This document shows, piece by piece, positions 52,328 to 60,877 of a DNA stretch of 64,000 bases (position 1 is its first letter; each line of letters opens with the position of its first letter). Location: contig JAVYKX010000001.1 of the NCBI GenBank assembly GCA_038741495.1, forward strand, positions 676,918 through 740,917, in the 5' to 3' direction. Below the pieces are notes generated by a model. The model was not told the origin of the DNA and did no database searches. It saw only the letters and a list, made by a program, of their open reading frames with translations. The DNA comes from Thermofilum sp. (GTDB lineage: Archaea > Thermoproteota > Thermoprotei > Thermofilales > Thermofilaceae). The position numbers and the translations under genes are program-made.

Positions 52328-52588
52328 GTGTACATGGCTTCCGTCACCGTCTCGTTGAAAGTGCCCAGGAGGCTCGTAGAGCTGGCCGATAAGATGGTCA
52401 GGTACGGTATCGCGAGGAGCAGGTCGCACGCGTTCAACATCATGATCGAGAAGGGGCTCGGCAAAGTAGTCGAGGAGGTCGAGCTCTGGGAATCTGCCTA
52501 CAGGAAGGTCGAAGAGCTGAAAGAAGCGAAGTACAGGTTGAGGCACGGTCGTCTCAGCGAGCTGCTCAGGGAGGATAGATCCGAATGA
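52328..52588 (+). CDS. RHH antitoxin (VapB)
   Basis: 86 residues from GTG (ATG at 52334 is an alternative). MASVTVSLKVPRRLVELADK and ARSRSHAFNIMIEKGL make the ribbon-helix-helix. A TATA box AGCATATAAC (about 52293-52302) places transcription start at the first codon. The vapC start overlaps the stop by 4 nt. Confidence 0.9.
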   Translation: MYMASVTVSLKVPRRLVELADKMVRYGIARSRSHAFNIMIEKGLGKVVEEVELWESAYRKVEELKEAKYRLRHGRLSELLREDRSE

Positions 52589-53010
52589 TTTACCTGGATA
52601 CCAACGTCATCATATCTTACGTTGACGAGCTGGATTCAAAGCACCCCGATGCGCTGGAGCTTCTCAGCTTGCTTGAAGGCGAGAAAGTTGCGAGCAAGCT
52701 CACGCTCCTGGAGCTAGTCTCAGTCTTCTCTCGAGCTGGCTTAGACGACCCGGTAGCCTTAGCCTTGTACTCGATCGAGGAGGTTGGAGTCAGGATCGAA
52801 GACATCGACTTCAACATAGTGGTCAGCAAAGCTGTGAGGCTGGCTCGAGATCTGAAGCTCAAAACGCTGGACTTGCTCCACCTAGCCGCTTGCGCTGAGA
52901 TGAGGTCCGAGATCTTCGCAACGTTCGATGAAGCCATCCTGAAGAGAGCTGAAGACATCCGCAGGCTGCTGGGAGTCAGGGTTATCGGCGGGCCTTGGCG
53001 TACTCGATGA
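52585..53010 (+). CDS. PIN-domain toxin (VapC)
   Basis: 141 residues. MIYLDTNVIISYVDE (Asp5), KLTLLELVSVFSR (Glu), LKTLDLLHLAACAEM (Asp) and IFATFDEAIL (Asp) supply the four acidic residues of the PIN active site. Intact and in frame, unlike several other copies in this window. Confidence 0.93.
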   Translation: MIYLDTNVIISYVDELDSKHPDALELLSLLEGEKVASKLTLLELVSVFSRAGLDDPVALALYSIEEVGVRIEDIDFNIVVSKAVRLARDLKLKTLDLLHLAACAEMRSEIFATFDEAILKRAEDIRRLLGVRVIGGPWRTR

Positions 53011-56430: not shown

Positions 56431-57252
56431 TTAAAGCGCGATTTCCGGGGCGCTCAGTTCTCGAGCTGCTGGAGGCTTTGGGGAAGACTTCATGAGCCCA
56501 AGCTTCACGTATGCTTCTGCCAGCGCCCAGCCCAGCTGAGTCAGCTTAATCCTCTTCGCCCTCCCTTCCTGCTCTCTCTCCAGAAGCCCCCTCTCCTCCA
56601 TGGACTCCACAATTCGGCTGTAAGTAGCTCTTACGACTGCTTGCGAAGGCTCTTTGCCGAGCCACTTGATGAGCTCGGAGATGCTCTCCGCGGACCCGTT
56701 CCTCACGTAAAGGGCTGTGAGGATGCTCACCTCCTTGCTCTCTTCGTCGAGCAGCTCCACGCGGGCTCTCGGCTTCTCGATGAGGCAGATGTCCTGGAGA
56801 GTGAGGTTGTCCTTCCTCTCCAGGAACTCGGTGAACTCCGGCGTCTCGGGGTCCGGGATGAACTCCCCGCTCTGCTCCGGCCTCGCCGCGTACAGCCTGG
56901 AGTTCGGGAAAAGGGAGGAGATGATCGCTACAGTCGCCGCCATGTAGGGAGGCATGTCGGTTAAGTCCACGAACACGATCTTCCCCTCCTCGCTCTTCAA
57001 GATCGCGTAGAGCGCTGCCGCGACGCTCGCGTAGCTGAGGGGGTTCACCTTTACGAGGACGGGCTTGAAGAAGGAGAGCACTTGCTGGATTTTCTTCACG
57101 TTGTGCCTTGAAACCGCGCCGTAGCGGTCGGGCTTGCTGTCGTACAGCAGGTAAACCCTCTCGATGGGGTACGAGAGCCTTACGCGGTCGAAGCCCTCGA
57201 GTATCAGCCTGGGGTGGAAGCCGACGTAGTGCACTGTCACCGCTGGCGGCAC
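56431..57252 (-). CDS. CARF-domain protein with winged HTH (nucleotide-sensing regulator)
   Basis: 273 residues. The first 140 residues are Rossmann-like: VHYVGFHPRLILEGFDRVRL, RVYLLYDSKPDRYG, VLVKVNPLSYASVAAALYAI and VFVDLTDMPPYMAATVAIIS. This matches the CARF domain of archaeal regulators of the HFX_2341/Csa3-related kind, where DxTDxPP lines the ligand pocket. Residues about 175-255 are a wHTH (EVSILTALYVRNGSAESISE). CARF domains sense cyclic oligoadenylates or other nucleotides in CRISPR and other defence contexts. No cas gene is nearby. It is divergent from the NurA-HerA operon. Confidence 0.8.
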   Translation of the reverse strand: MPPAVTVHYVGFHPRLILEGFDRVRLSYPIERVYLLYDSKPDRYGAVSRHNVKKIQQVLSFFKPVLVKVNPLSYASVAAALYAILKSEEGKIVFVDLTDMPPYMAATVAIISSLFPNSRLYAARPEQSGEFIPDPETPEFTEFLERKDNLTLQDICLIEKPRARVELLDEESKEVSILTALYVRNGSAESISELIKWLGKEPSQAVVRATYSRIVESMEERGLLEREQEGRAKRIKLTQLGWALAEAYVKLGLMKSSPKPPAARELSAPEIAL

Positions 57253-57291
57253 TGATTCCCCCTCAGCTACAGCGAGCTCGTACTGTAATGA

Positions 57292-57498
57292 GTGGGCAGC
57301 TACCTGCTTATATATGTTTGCAACCGTTGCTGGAGAAAGTTATTGTACGCTGAAAATGCTTCAAACCTCCCTAGCTTTTTGCAACACCTGAAGTGCTACA
57401 ATCATACATTTGCAATACGTTACGGGCGCGAGCCCTCTGAACTCCAGAGGAGTTTCCTTCGCCACTTTATTATGGGAAGGTTGCGCTGGGAGAAGTGA
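57292..57498 (+). CDS. Possible small zinc-finger-like protein upstream of nurA
   Basis: 68 residues from GTG 57292. LIYVCNRCWRKLLYAEN supplies CxxC, and LQHLKCYNHTF supplies C-x2-H 20-odd residues later, a plausible zinc site. A basic tail (RRSFLRHFIMGRLRWEK-like) follows. It ends 6 nt before nurA, in the position of an operon gene. The TATA core at 57304-57312 falls within its first codons, so either the promoter for this ORF is further upstream or the ORF is not translated in full. Confidence 0.42.
   Translation: MGSYLLIYVCNRCWRKLLYAENASNLPSFLQHLKCYNHTFAIRYGREPSELQRSFLRHFIMGRLRWEK
57300..57314. promoter_or_regulatory. TATA region between the CARF-wHTH gene and the NurA-HerA operon
   Basis: CTGCTTATATATG on plus and CATATATAAGCAG on minus share one AT core. 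On minus it lies about 50 bp before the CARF gene; on plus it lies inside the small Cys-containing ORF and could drive a transcript that begins with nurA. Confidence 0.5.
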
Positions 57499-57504
57499 GA
57501 GCTG

Positions 57505-58497
57505 ATGGCGCTGCTGCAGCGGTCAGGCTACCTCGACTCTGACGTGAAGATGCTTGTCGAGAAGCTTGCAGAGATCTACAGGCAGGGAGGCAAGCCGGTG
57601 CAGCTCACTCTCACGGGGGAGCCTGCGCGCCCCCACCCAGTCCTGAAGCTCGGAGGACTCACGATCCGGGGCCCACCCGTGTCCGAGACGAGGTTTCGGG
57701 CAATCGAGGAGGTGCCCCACAACTTCACAGTCTTCGCGGTAGACGCGGCCGCGCGGCTACTCTTCGACGCGGGCCCCTACAAGATCGTGTCCGCCAAGGT
57801 GGTGGTGGGAGTCTGGAGGGGGCTTGAAAGGCTGCGCATCATCGGCCCTGTGAAGCGCATAGCCCTTTTCGAAAGCTTGCAGGACGCGGGCGACTGGCTA
57901 GCAGCTGTGGAGCTGGAGGCCGCGTACAGGTTCGCTAGAGAAAACCCGGGGGCATTCTTCCTCATGGATAGGCCCTTGGCCGCGCCCGCCGGCTCGCGAG
58001 CGCACAGAGCTCTCAAAGCGCTAACGGAGCGGTCTTGGAGGGTGATCGGCCTCCCGAAGAGCACCGGCGTGAAAGTCTCCACGGGCGAGGGGCTGGCGGG
58101 CTACTTGTCGAAGCTAGCTAGCAGAGTGCTCGCCGGCTTGCCTTGGGTGTACTACCCCGTCGTGGAGCAGCCGAAGCTCGGGCTCGCGGTAGCCGCCGTC
58201 AGGCTCGCTTCGAGCGGCCCAGTGTTCCGGCTGGACCTCACCTGGAGGATGGCTGAGTCCTACGACGTGGCGGACGTGGCGGGCATGCTGGCGTACCTCC
58301 AGGACTTCAGCTCCCCAGGCTACCCCCTCCCCTTGAAAATTGTCCACGAGCTCAGCCGGATCAGCGGGGACGAGCTCGAGATGGACAGGGCTCTGTTCCT
58401 GGAGGAGGTCAGCCTCACCGGGGTGGCGCGCAGCCTCCTCGAGGACGCAGCAGGCTCGGAGTTCAAAACCAGGTACTTGTGGGGTGGGCTCAGTTGA
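57505..58497 (+). CDS. nurA: NurA-domain nuclease
   Basis: 330 residues. NurA motif I is present in FTVFAVDAAARLLFD (Asp80), a central AFFLMDRPLAAP provides a second Asp, and the C-terminal HELSRISGDELEMDRALFLE region is family-like. NurA nucleases act as dimers on the HerA hexamer and resect DNA ends. The stop overlaps the herA start as TTGA, a tight pair. Mre11 and Rad50 genes, often adjacent in archaea, are not in this window. Confidence 0.82.
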   Translation: MALLQRSGYLDSDVKMLVEKLAEIYRQGGKPVQLTLTGEPARPHPVLKLGGLTIRGPPVSETRFRAIEEVPHNFTVFAVDAAARLLFDAGPYKIVSAKVVVGVWRGLERLRIIGPVKRIALFESLQDAGDWLAAVELEAAYRFARENPGAFFLMDRPLAAPAGSRAHRALKALTERSWRVIGLPKSTGVKVSTGEGLAGYLSKLASRVLAGLPWVYYPVVEQPKLGLAVAAVRLASSGPVFRLDLTWRMAESYDVADVAGMLAYLQDFSSPGYPLPLKIVHELSRISGDELEMDRALFLEEVSLTGVARSLLEDAAGSEFKTRYLWGGLS

Positions 58498-60104
58498 AGC
58501 TAGGAGTAGTCGTCTGGGCTGAGGGAACTGAGGTCAGGTTCCGCGTAGCCGAGGGGGCGCGCGTCGAGAGAGGGATGCTGGCTAAGGTCGAGGACAAGGG
58601 CAGAGTGTACGTCGTGAGGGTAGTCGACTTCAAGCCGGAAAGCCTCCTCTCGCCCGCCGAGGTGGCGGTGATCAGCAGCAATGTTGGGCGCGAGGGTGGG
58701 CTCCTCCTGCGGGACAAGGACCTCAGGCTCTACGACACCGCTATAGCTGTGATTGTCGCGCAGATCGACGAGGATGGGGAAGTTCACGGCCCCACCAGCG
58801 TCCCCGCGCTCTTCACCAGTGTGGAGGAGCTCGAGGTCCCGGACCTGGAGAAACTGAAGCTCCACGTCGGCGACATCCCCATCGGCTACGTGAGGTTCGG
58901 CCACTCTCCCGTGGAGGTTGTTGTAGCGCTCGACGGGGGGAAGACGATCCCCCACCACGTGCTGGTCGTGGGGGGCACGGGAGCGGGCAAGTCCAACTTG
59001 GGGAGAGTGCTGTCCGCCTCGATCCTGAACACTAGGGGGAGGTACAGCCTGGTGCTTTTCGACTGCGAGAACGAGTACCTGCTGGGCTCCAAGCCGGGGG
59101 AGATGGGGCTGGCCCACCTCCCCTTCTCCGAGGAGTACCTCTTCCTCGTCACGGGCAGGGTCCCGAGGCCTGGGAGGCTGCGGGTCGAGCTGCCGGAGCT
59201 GGGGGAGGAGAGGAAGATCCCCGCCTACCCTTTGAAGATGGATGTGTCGAGGCTTAAGCCCCAGGACTTCACGCTCACCGGGGAGTTCAGCGGCCCCCAG
59301 GAGGAGCTGCTCTGGCTCGCTTACAAGCAGTTTGGCGACGAGTGGGTTAGCGCGCTGCTCACGATGGACAGCAGGTCTCTCTACATGAGGCTTTCCCGCC
59401 TGGTCCCCGTGAACACAATCAACGTGACGAAGAGGAAGCTAAGGCACTTGACCGGCGACGGGGACATCTTCTGCAGGGACTGCGACTACGACCTCGCGAC
59501 GGCAACTCTCTCCATGGTGCAGAGGGGTAGGGTGGTCCTCGTCGAAACACCTTTCGCGACGGAGGGCGAGGAGAAGCTCCTCGCCGTCGCGGTCGCTAGG
59601 CGCATCTTCTACGCGTACGAGAAGCTGAGGAAGGAGGCTCCGGAGAAGTGGGAGGAGCTGCCCCCAGTTCTCGTGATGGTTGAGGAAGCTCACCGGTACT
59701 TGAGCAAGCAGGCATTGGGAGGGTCGGGGGAGGTGCGGGAGAACATTTTCTCGGTGATCGCGAAGAGGGGGCGTAAGTACAAGGTTGGCGGGCTCTACAT
59801 CACTCAGATGCCCAGCGAGCTGATGGAGGCTGTTGTGAGGCAAGCGTTGACGAAAATCATCCTATCGCTGCCGACGAGGCCCGACTACACCACAGTGATC
59901 AACCACAGCCCGTACCTCGACGGGGCTGAGAGCGAGATCAAGACGCTCGACAGGGGTGAAGCCATCGTTGTGAGCATGCCGAGCGGCTTCCGCTTCGCCG
60001 TCTCCGTCAGGATCTTCAAGTACGAGGACTATGCCCTCACCCTCATCGAGCAGCAGAGGAAAAGCCTCGCCACCTCGGCGGCAGTTTCGGTGGAGAGAGC
60101 TTAG
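58494..60104 (+). CDS. herA: HerA-type DNA translocase ATPase
   Basis: 536 residues from TTG that overlaps the nurA stop. N-terminal HAS-barrel (about 1-80), Walker A VLVVGGTGAGKSN (157-168), Walker B VLVMVEEAHRYLS, and the conserved SVIAKRGRKYKVGGLYITQ block with arginine finger. These proteins form hexamers that pump double-stranded DNA into NurA. Length and order agree with archaeal HerA. It may also belong to the broader HerA-NurA-like defence modules. Confidence 0.9.
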   Translation: MKLGVVVWAEGTEVRFRVAEGARVERGMLAKVEDKGRVYVVRVVDFKPESLLSPAEVAVISSNVGREGGLLLRDKDLRLYDTAIAVIVAQIDEDGEVHGPTSVPALFTSVEELEVPDLEKLKLHVGDIPIGYVRFGHSPVEVVVALDGGKTIPHHVLVVGGTGAGKSNLGRVLSASILNTRGRYSLVLFDCENEYLLGSKPGEMGLAHLPFSEEYLFLVTGRVPRPGRLRVELPELGEERKIPAYPLKMDVSRLKPQDFTLTGEFSGPQEELLWLAYKQFGDEWVSALLTMDSRSLYMRLSRLVPVNTINVTKRKLRHLTGDGDIFCRDCDYDLATATLSMVQRGRVVLVETPFATEGEEKLLAVAVARRIFYAYEKLRKEAPEKWEELPPVLVMVEEAHRYLSKQALGGSGEVRENIFSVIAKRGRKYKVGGLYITQMPSELMEAVVRQALTKIILSLPTRPDYTTVINHSPYLDGAESEIKTLDRGEAIVVSMPSGFRFAVSVRIFKYEDYALTLIEQQRKSLATSAAVSVERA

Positions 60105-60149: not shown

Positions 60150-60560
60150 CTAGAGATCCCTCCACGACGCGACTTCTACGTACTTAGCAGCAATCCTCCT
60201 CAGCTTCTCATCCTCTGTTACGAGTGGTACCCCGAAGGCGATGCTGGCCGCTAGATAGCTAGCATCGTAGAAAGTGATACCGTTGTCCACAGCTAGGTTT
60301 AGAATAGCAGAGTACCCTAGATCCCTCCACCCCACCTTGATAATGCCTTTCACCAGGAGGAGCTTACCTATAGCCAGGGCGGTGCGCTCTACCTCCTCTC
60401 GGCTGGCAACCCCCCTCACCACCTGCTTCCACAGCGCATTGCCAATCTCGTAGAAGGCTAAGTCTAAAGTCGCGAGGCCGTCGAGCTTATCCAGCAGGGC
60501 CTCCTCCTCAACGTTCTTGATCATCAGCAGTAGAGAGCTTGCGTCGACGATCGCCTTCAC
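60150..60560 (-). CDS. PIN-domain toxin (VapC)
   Basis: 136 residues. MKAIVDASSLLLMIKN (Asp6), LDLAFYEIGNALWKQV (Glu), ITFYDASYLAASIA (Asp) and PLVTEDEKLRR (Asp) give an intact active site. Overlaps vapB by 4 nt. Confidence 0.93.
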   Translation of the reverse strand: MKAIVDASSLLLMIKNVEEEALLDKLDGLATLDLAFYEIGNALWKQVVRGVASREEVERTALAIGKLLLVKGIIKVGWRDLGYSAILNLAVDNGITFYDASYLAASIAFGVPLVTEDEKLRRIAAKYVEVASWRDL

Positions 60561-60781
60561 CGCTCCTCCCTGGAGGCCCTAACCGCCTGGATAATCTCCT
60601 CGTCGCTGAGCTTCGAGAGCGTTCTCCTAGCCTCAGCTAGTGATTTAACTAGAAGCTCTCGCTCCCTTCTCTCAACCTCCTCCTCAAGGGCTCTTCTAAC
60701 TACTTCGCTCACGTTGATGTTCAGCTCTTTCACCTTCCTCTTAAGCTCCCTGCTCAGCCTCACGGTTATAATCTCCGTCAT
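60557..60781 (-). CDS. Antitoxin (VapB) of the PIN toxin
   Basis: 74 residues from ATG 60779-60781. A TATA box GCTTATATACGG (about 60805-60816, minus) lies about 25 bp before this ATG, so I prefer it over the upstream ATG at 60802. TEIITVRLSRELKRKVKELN and VSEVVRRALEEEVERRER form the RHH-type domain and helix. Confidence 0.9.
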   Translation of the reverse strand: MTEIITVRLSRELKRKVKELNINVSEVVRRALEEEVERRERELLVKSLAEARRTLSKLSDEEIIQAVRASREER

Positions 60782-60877
60782 TACATCAAACGTAATACGC
60801 ACACCGTATATAAGCTTTTAGCAGCTGCGTTGAGGAAACCTAGTGCCTCAGTCAAGGGCGCTCCGGGGCCTCCACCT

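Follow-up and report, generated by a model that had tools for sequence, protein, structure and literature searches.

The CARF-NurA-HerA locus

In a 64,000-nucleotide stretch of a Thermofilum sp. genome (contig JAVYKX010000001.1; hereafter, the window), a gene for a CARF-winged helix-turn-helix (CARF-wHTH) regulator is divergently oriented to a gene pair for the nuclease NurA and the translocase HerA. The 252-bp gap that separates the CARF gene from nurA carries an array of operator-like palindromes, a TATA box for the CARF gene, and a candidate TATA element for nurA-herA. CARF sensors usually read antiviral alarm molecules, and to our knowledge CARF domains have been studied almost only as CRISPR effectors; no cas genes were found adjoining this locus. 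Its features, with palindromes scored by position weight matrix (PWM), are as follows.

56431..57252, minus strand: CARF-wHTH regulator, 273 aa, DUF6293/HFX_2341-like; CARF domain at about residues 1-160, winged helix at about residues 173-250
57278..57290: operator-like palindrome O2 (TCGTACTGTAATG), centre 57284; PWM score 7.4; on the start-proximal side of the CARF TATA box
57292..57498, plus strand: zinc-finger-like open reading frame (ORF), judged to be intergenic regulatory DNA and not a gene
57308..57316, minus strand: CARF-gene TATA box (TTATATATG), between O2 and O3
57319..57331: operator-like palindrome O3 (TGCAACCGTTGCT), centre 57325; PWM score 13.2, the top site of the 64-kb window
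57394..57406: decayed copy of O5 (TGCTACAATCATA), centre 57400; PWM score 2.4; aligns with an intact site (score 11.1) in the sister genome G025
57466..57475, plus strand: candidate nurA-herA TATA element (TTTATTATGG), ∼30-39 bp 5' of the nurA ATG
57505..58497, plus strand: NurA nuclease, 330 aa, CARF-linked subfamily; PF09376 match, invariant D80/E136/D155/H281
58479..60104, plus strand: HerA translocase, 541 aa; DUF87, intact Walker A (GGTGAGKS); start overlaps the end of nurA

A sequence-only reading of the window had recognized the divergent layout, the CARF-wHTH, NurA and HerA identities of the three proteins, and the role of the shared intergenic region as a promoter region, and all of these are upheld by the results below. 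It had also listed the zinc-finger-like ORF alongside NurA and HerA, and this ORF we reject as a gene: it has no family match, and its frame is not conserved, the matching stretch in genus relatives being interrupted by stops. Even in the nearest relative, G025 (CARF 75% and HerA 88% identical), the identity of this stretch is 45% over 56 residues, and a stop interrupts it. It most plausibly represents regulatory DNA.

Conservation and inheritance of the unit

The survey covered 27 genomes of the order and a phylum-wide sample of 398; the relatives that bear names are Thermofilum and other Thermofilaceae or Thermofilales bins. Statements made for whole genomes derive from searches. The CARF protein is present in 21 of the 27 Thermofilales genomes and the CARF-linked NurA in 22. 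Wherever the order has the CARF gene (21/21), nurA is directly divergent from it and herA lies downstream, and the single NurA without a CARF gene (G007) starts at a contig edge. Among the 398 phylum genomes, the CARF-linked NurA subfamily is set apart by a sharp gap in scores (E-value 3.5e-48, then 4.1e-25 for other NurAs); it occurs in 31 genomes, with the CARF gene adjacent wherever the flank is readable. Outside the order, a divergent nurA-herA accompanies 11 of the 17 CARF homologues examined, while, of the six unlinked homologues, four belong to one family and stand immediately upstream of NAD+ synthase, the other two lying elsewhere. The adjacency, whose restriction to a single genome would have counted against the sequence-only reading, is kept across Thermofilales and in 11 genomes of other orders and lineages of the phylum.

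Evolutionary distances of CARF, NurA, and HerA correlate with one another (r 0.85-0.92; 0/2000 permutations), identity is lower the greater the taxonomic distance, and part of the genus has flanking genes in common, those of the window genome matching only its sister G025. Taken together, these suggest that the three genes were passed on vertically as a unit. One other family of the phylum (L163-L166) has a CARF-wHTH homologue before NAD+ synthase, with neither NurA-HerA nor an operator array.

The operator-like palindrome array

The palindromes follow a consensus of approximately TGnTAC-n-GTAnCA. In 21 genomes, the CARF|nurA intergenic regions hold an excess of AC-N-GT cores (83 observed vs 23.7 expected), with no enrichment of the offset spacers AC..GT, AC...GT, and ACGT in the same regions. 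Among 13 representatives, the excess extends from the cores themselves (48 vs 14.5 expected) to core pairs 18-22 bp apart (14 vs 0.3) and to core positions common between genomes (82 vs 2.5), each with 0/500 shuffles; pair spacing and positions exceed 1000 random placements even with the number of sites fixed. Six site positions, O1-O6, take in 64 of the 83 cores, in bins that span 55 of ∼255 bp and were chosen post hoc. Outside the order, CARF|nurA regions yield 17 PWM hits vs 2.6 in shuffles.

The array is also phased to the promoters. The position of O2 is kept in relatives. In 19 of 21 relatives, the CARF gene has a TATA-like element that lies between the positions of O2 and O3, and the candidate nurA-herA TATA element is a conserved block in the genus alignment. 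The window genome keeps two good sites, at 57284 and 57325, 41 bp apart on either side of the CARF TATA box; a third has decayed. Four genus genomes each have a single match to a strict doublet pattern (YWACNGTWR-N10-12-YWACNGTWR), always in the CARF-nurA intergenic region, and the reversed control pattern gave no match in the search. As for a wider regulon, no doublet was found in the cas, Csa3, and other NurA-HerA regions examined, bar lone weak spaced pairs in L102 and L210, which are probably due to chance.

The CARF-wHTH protein and its pocket

The CARF protein is matched by PADLOC CARF models (E-value 1.6e-14) and, above cut-off, by Pfam DUF6293_C (29.6 vs 27); its HFX_2341_N match is weak and below cut-off (22.1 vs 30). 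Among 16 members of the family, PF22665 matches 14 and PF19810 matches 11. An AlphaFold2 model built from 16 relatives (mean predicted local distance difference test score 84) has as its top Foldseek matches Csa3, both apo and bound to cyclic tetra-adenylate (cA4), followed by Csm6 and ring nucleases. We nonetheless rejected membership in Csa3 itself (TIGR01884): the window protein has no TIGR01884 match, and the model weakly matches only two of the 16 relatives (best E-value 1.8e-5). A separate true Csa3, above the TIGR01884 cut-off, is encoded elsewhere in the same genome (G000:C3:137899).

The cA4 pocket of Csa3 has motif 2, L-x2-G-h-R, as its floor (PMC8844856, PMC8699464), and profile alignment places the D-x-T-D-M-P-P of the window CARF family on this motif. 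The 16 sequences of the order all have D96, T98, M100, and P101; at position 99, 15 of them carry Asp (T-D-M-P) and that of G001 carries Ser (T-S-M-P). The basic motif-2 residue (GxR or TK) for the phosphates of a cyclic oligoadenylate (cOA) is absent from the Thermofilales sequences; most CARF homologues outside the order carry D-x-T-S-T-T-K-E-A, with a lysine. A pocket that is conserved, yet has lost its basic residue in one order, would argue for a ligand, though not clearly for cA4.

The distribution of cOA synthetases bears on the same question. The window's own genome encodes both the CARF effector Csx1 and a Cas10 of Cmr type with GGDD, so that the search for a synthetase suggested by the sequence-only reading succeeded there; across the order it did less well, as no more than 10 of the 21 CARF-gene carriers gave a Cas10 match. 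Six near-complete carriers (G003, G006, G013, G017, G019, and G023) gave no Cas10 match, and near-complete G020 has Cas10 and no CARF gene. With the basic motif-2 residue missing and Cas10 so distributed, the nucleotide second messenger that had been proposed is no more than a candidate CARF ligand.

NurA, HerA, and the other pairs of the genome

The window NurA matches PF09376 (31.4 vs a cut-off of 21 bits), and a profile search retrieves the S. solfataricus NurA structure 2ygk. All 19 relatives compared keep residues D80, E136, D155, and H281, as would be expected of an active nuclease. The central ATPase domain of HerA matches PF01935 (51 vs 23.2 bits). PADLOC models match HerA; there was no PADLOC match for the window NurA.

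Neither mre11 nor rad50 occurs in the CARF-linked operon, at the window locus or at that of G024. The lack of Mre11-Rad50 noted in the sequence-only reading applies to this operon alone. Within the 1.6 Mb (96% complete) of the window's own genome are three NurA-HerA pairs: the CARF-linked one, one in a nurA-herA-mre11-rad50-like operon (G000:C1:417861-425031), and a third at ∼G000:C1:801700-804700. The CARF-linked pair is therefore an extra, specialized one.

An apparent absence of Rad50 from most of the genus, suggested by a zinc-hook search, proved wrong because the Thermofilum Rad50-like protein (L099:12518-15031, equal to G000:C1:422517-425030; L102:3012-5549) has no CxxC zinc hook, nor any cysteine. 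At the hook position it has a ∼40-residue hydrophobic double segment, possibly a membrane hairpin. One genus member (L107, G023:C14) has an extra mre11-rad50-nurA-herA operon with a normal zinc hook and a different gene order. The canonical-type operon of the window's own genome has a PaREP1/HEPN-like gene in antisense orientation between its nurA and herA (L099:9194-9565).

A proposed switch and its alternatives

We consider it probable that the locus is a dedicated, self-regulated switch, made up of the CARF-wHTH protein, the palindrome array, and a specialized NurA-HerA pair. A CARF-wHTH homodimer would bind the phased TGnTAC-n-GTAnCA palindromes between its own promoter and that of nurA-herA. 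Sites flanking the CARF TATA box would repress the CARF gene itself, and the array as a whole would set expression of an Mre11-Rad50-independent NurA-HerA end-processing complex. DNA binding would change when the CARF pocket takes up a small ligand, probably derived from a nucleotide, and this change would release or recruit transcription upon DNA damage or invasion. Some observations weigh against such a switch. The window's own genome, with its two good sites, has no match to the strict or the looser doublet pattern, and the looser pattern is too noisy, having background matches elsewhere in the AT-rich genomes of the order. Moreover, CARF homologues unlinked to nurA lack the array; the motif therefore tracks the module rather than CARF alone, and another binder could exist.

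A more specific and more tentative proposal, which we put forward as conceivable, is that the CARF-wHTH protein has a re-specialized pocket (Asp-Met-Pro in Thermofilales, Lys in other lineages) responding to a nucleotide, other than a cOA, that signals DNA damage or invasion. It would then be an ancient signalling unit apart from CRISPR, controlling a private NurA-HerA resection machine through the phased operator array.

Among the alternatives, a housekeeping repair regulon fares best, and we regard it as a real possibility, although a somewhat doubtful one. Here CARF would sense a cellular nucleotide (related to DNA damage or to NAD) and tune a backup end-resection complex, without taking part in antiviral defence; the idea is one version of the switch just proposed, differing in ligand and trigger. 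Vertical inheritance across the order with flanks kept within the genus, independence from Cas10, and the homologues of another family directly upstream of NAD+ synthase all speak for it, as does HFX_2341, a vertically inherited global regulator found also in CRISPR-Cas-free species (PMC11434293). It leaves unexplained why a genome that already has a complete nurA-herA-mre11-rad50-like operon should keep a second set.

We find it unlikely that the unit belongs instead to type III CRISPR signaling, with Cas10 making cA4 or cyclic hexa-adenylate (cA6) that CARF senses to induce NurA-HerA against invader DNA. The GGDD Cas10 and Csx1 of the same genome and the cA4-bound Csa3 among the nearest structures fit this idea, and a HerA-type ATPase with a nuclease partner does work in an anti-phage system (PMC11291478). 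But Cas10 was detected in fewer than half of the CARF carriers and is present in G020 without the CARF gene, the G-h-R/K of motif 2 that contacts the cA4 phosphates is replaced by D-M-P in the order, and the cas regions examined have no operator doublets beyond the weak spaced pair of L210. More generally, the anti-phage role toward which the sequence-only reading leaned gained no direct support, inheritance looking vertical and the window NurA having no PADLOC match.

It is rather improbable that CARF regulates other genes and that the array is bound by some different protein or provides HerA with an architectural or loading site. The lack of an upstream array at CARF genes unlinked to nurA would suit this, whereas it is at odds with sites that are in phase with the start and TATA box of the CARF gene and with the absence of the strict doublet from the remainder of the four genomes. 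Finally, the idea that unrelated genes came to be neighbours by chance in a single genome can be dismissed as already refuted, the arrangement being kept in 32 genomes from several orders and lineages of the phylum.

Relation to known systems

The closest functional parallel is Csa3. Overexpression of Csa3b in Sulfolobus islandicus raised nurA, rad50, mre11, and herA transcripts 2.4- to 3.0-fold (PMC7480081), and Csa3a is reported to couple activation of CRISPR and DNA-repair genes (Liu 2017, 2020, as cited in PMC12977600). Csa3 operators are palindromes (CAPPa) 5' of the transcription factor B recognition element/TATA box (PMC8699464). The window CARF protein thus resembles Csa3a and Csa3b in domain order and fold, in its candidate palindromic operators, and in its connection to nurA and herA, as Csa3a and Csa3b are reported to act on the nurA/rad50/mre11/herA genes in S. 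islandicus. It differs in falling outside TIGR01884, in being linked to NurA-HerA rather than to cas genes, in its candidate operator (TGnTACnGTAnCA vs TCCCN8GGGA), and in its motif 2 (D-M-P vs G-h-R).

The nearest named family is HFX_2341/DUF6293, which gives the best family matches and shares the CARF-like and wHTH domains and vertical inheritance. Overexpression of haloarchaeal HFX_2341 represses cas genes and its deletion raises nutrient-transport genes; unlike the window protein, it has no NurA-HerA link described in the part of PMC11434293 available. The canonical archaeal nurA-herA-mre11-rad50 operon likewise has co-operonic NurA and HerA, whereas the CARF-linked unit lacks mre11-rad50, has a short, divergent NurA subfamily, and coexists with the canonical operon. 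Bacterial HerA-nuclease anti-phage pairs also join a HerA ATPase to a nuclease partner, but the CARF-linked unit has another nuclease, is chromosomal and vertically inherited, and has a CARF transcription factor.

We found no description of a CARF-NurA-HerA unit in the literature covered, outside which falls the 2020 CARF classification; the 2014 CARF paper mentions neither NurA nor HerA. The claim that such co-regulation would be new was overstated, and the principle is not new, because Csa3a and Csa3b are reported to act on nurA-herA operons in Sulfolobus. The locked module, the regulator family, and the operator array do appear to be new.

DNA-damage sensing in archaea of this phylum is poorly understood, and the CARF-NurA-HerA unit may put DNA processing under the on-off control of a small signal molecule. 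A CARF factor long locked to NurA-HerA, with a readable operator and a pocket that varies between lineages, makes the question of non-CRISPR CARF ligands testable, and with it the role of extra NurA-HerA pairs.

Neighbouring genes

Toxin-antitoxin-like pairs lie on each side of the region, at window positions 52328-53010 and 60150-60802. Each consists of a small antitoxin-like ORF and a PIN-like ORF, as judged by eye.

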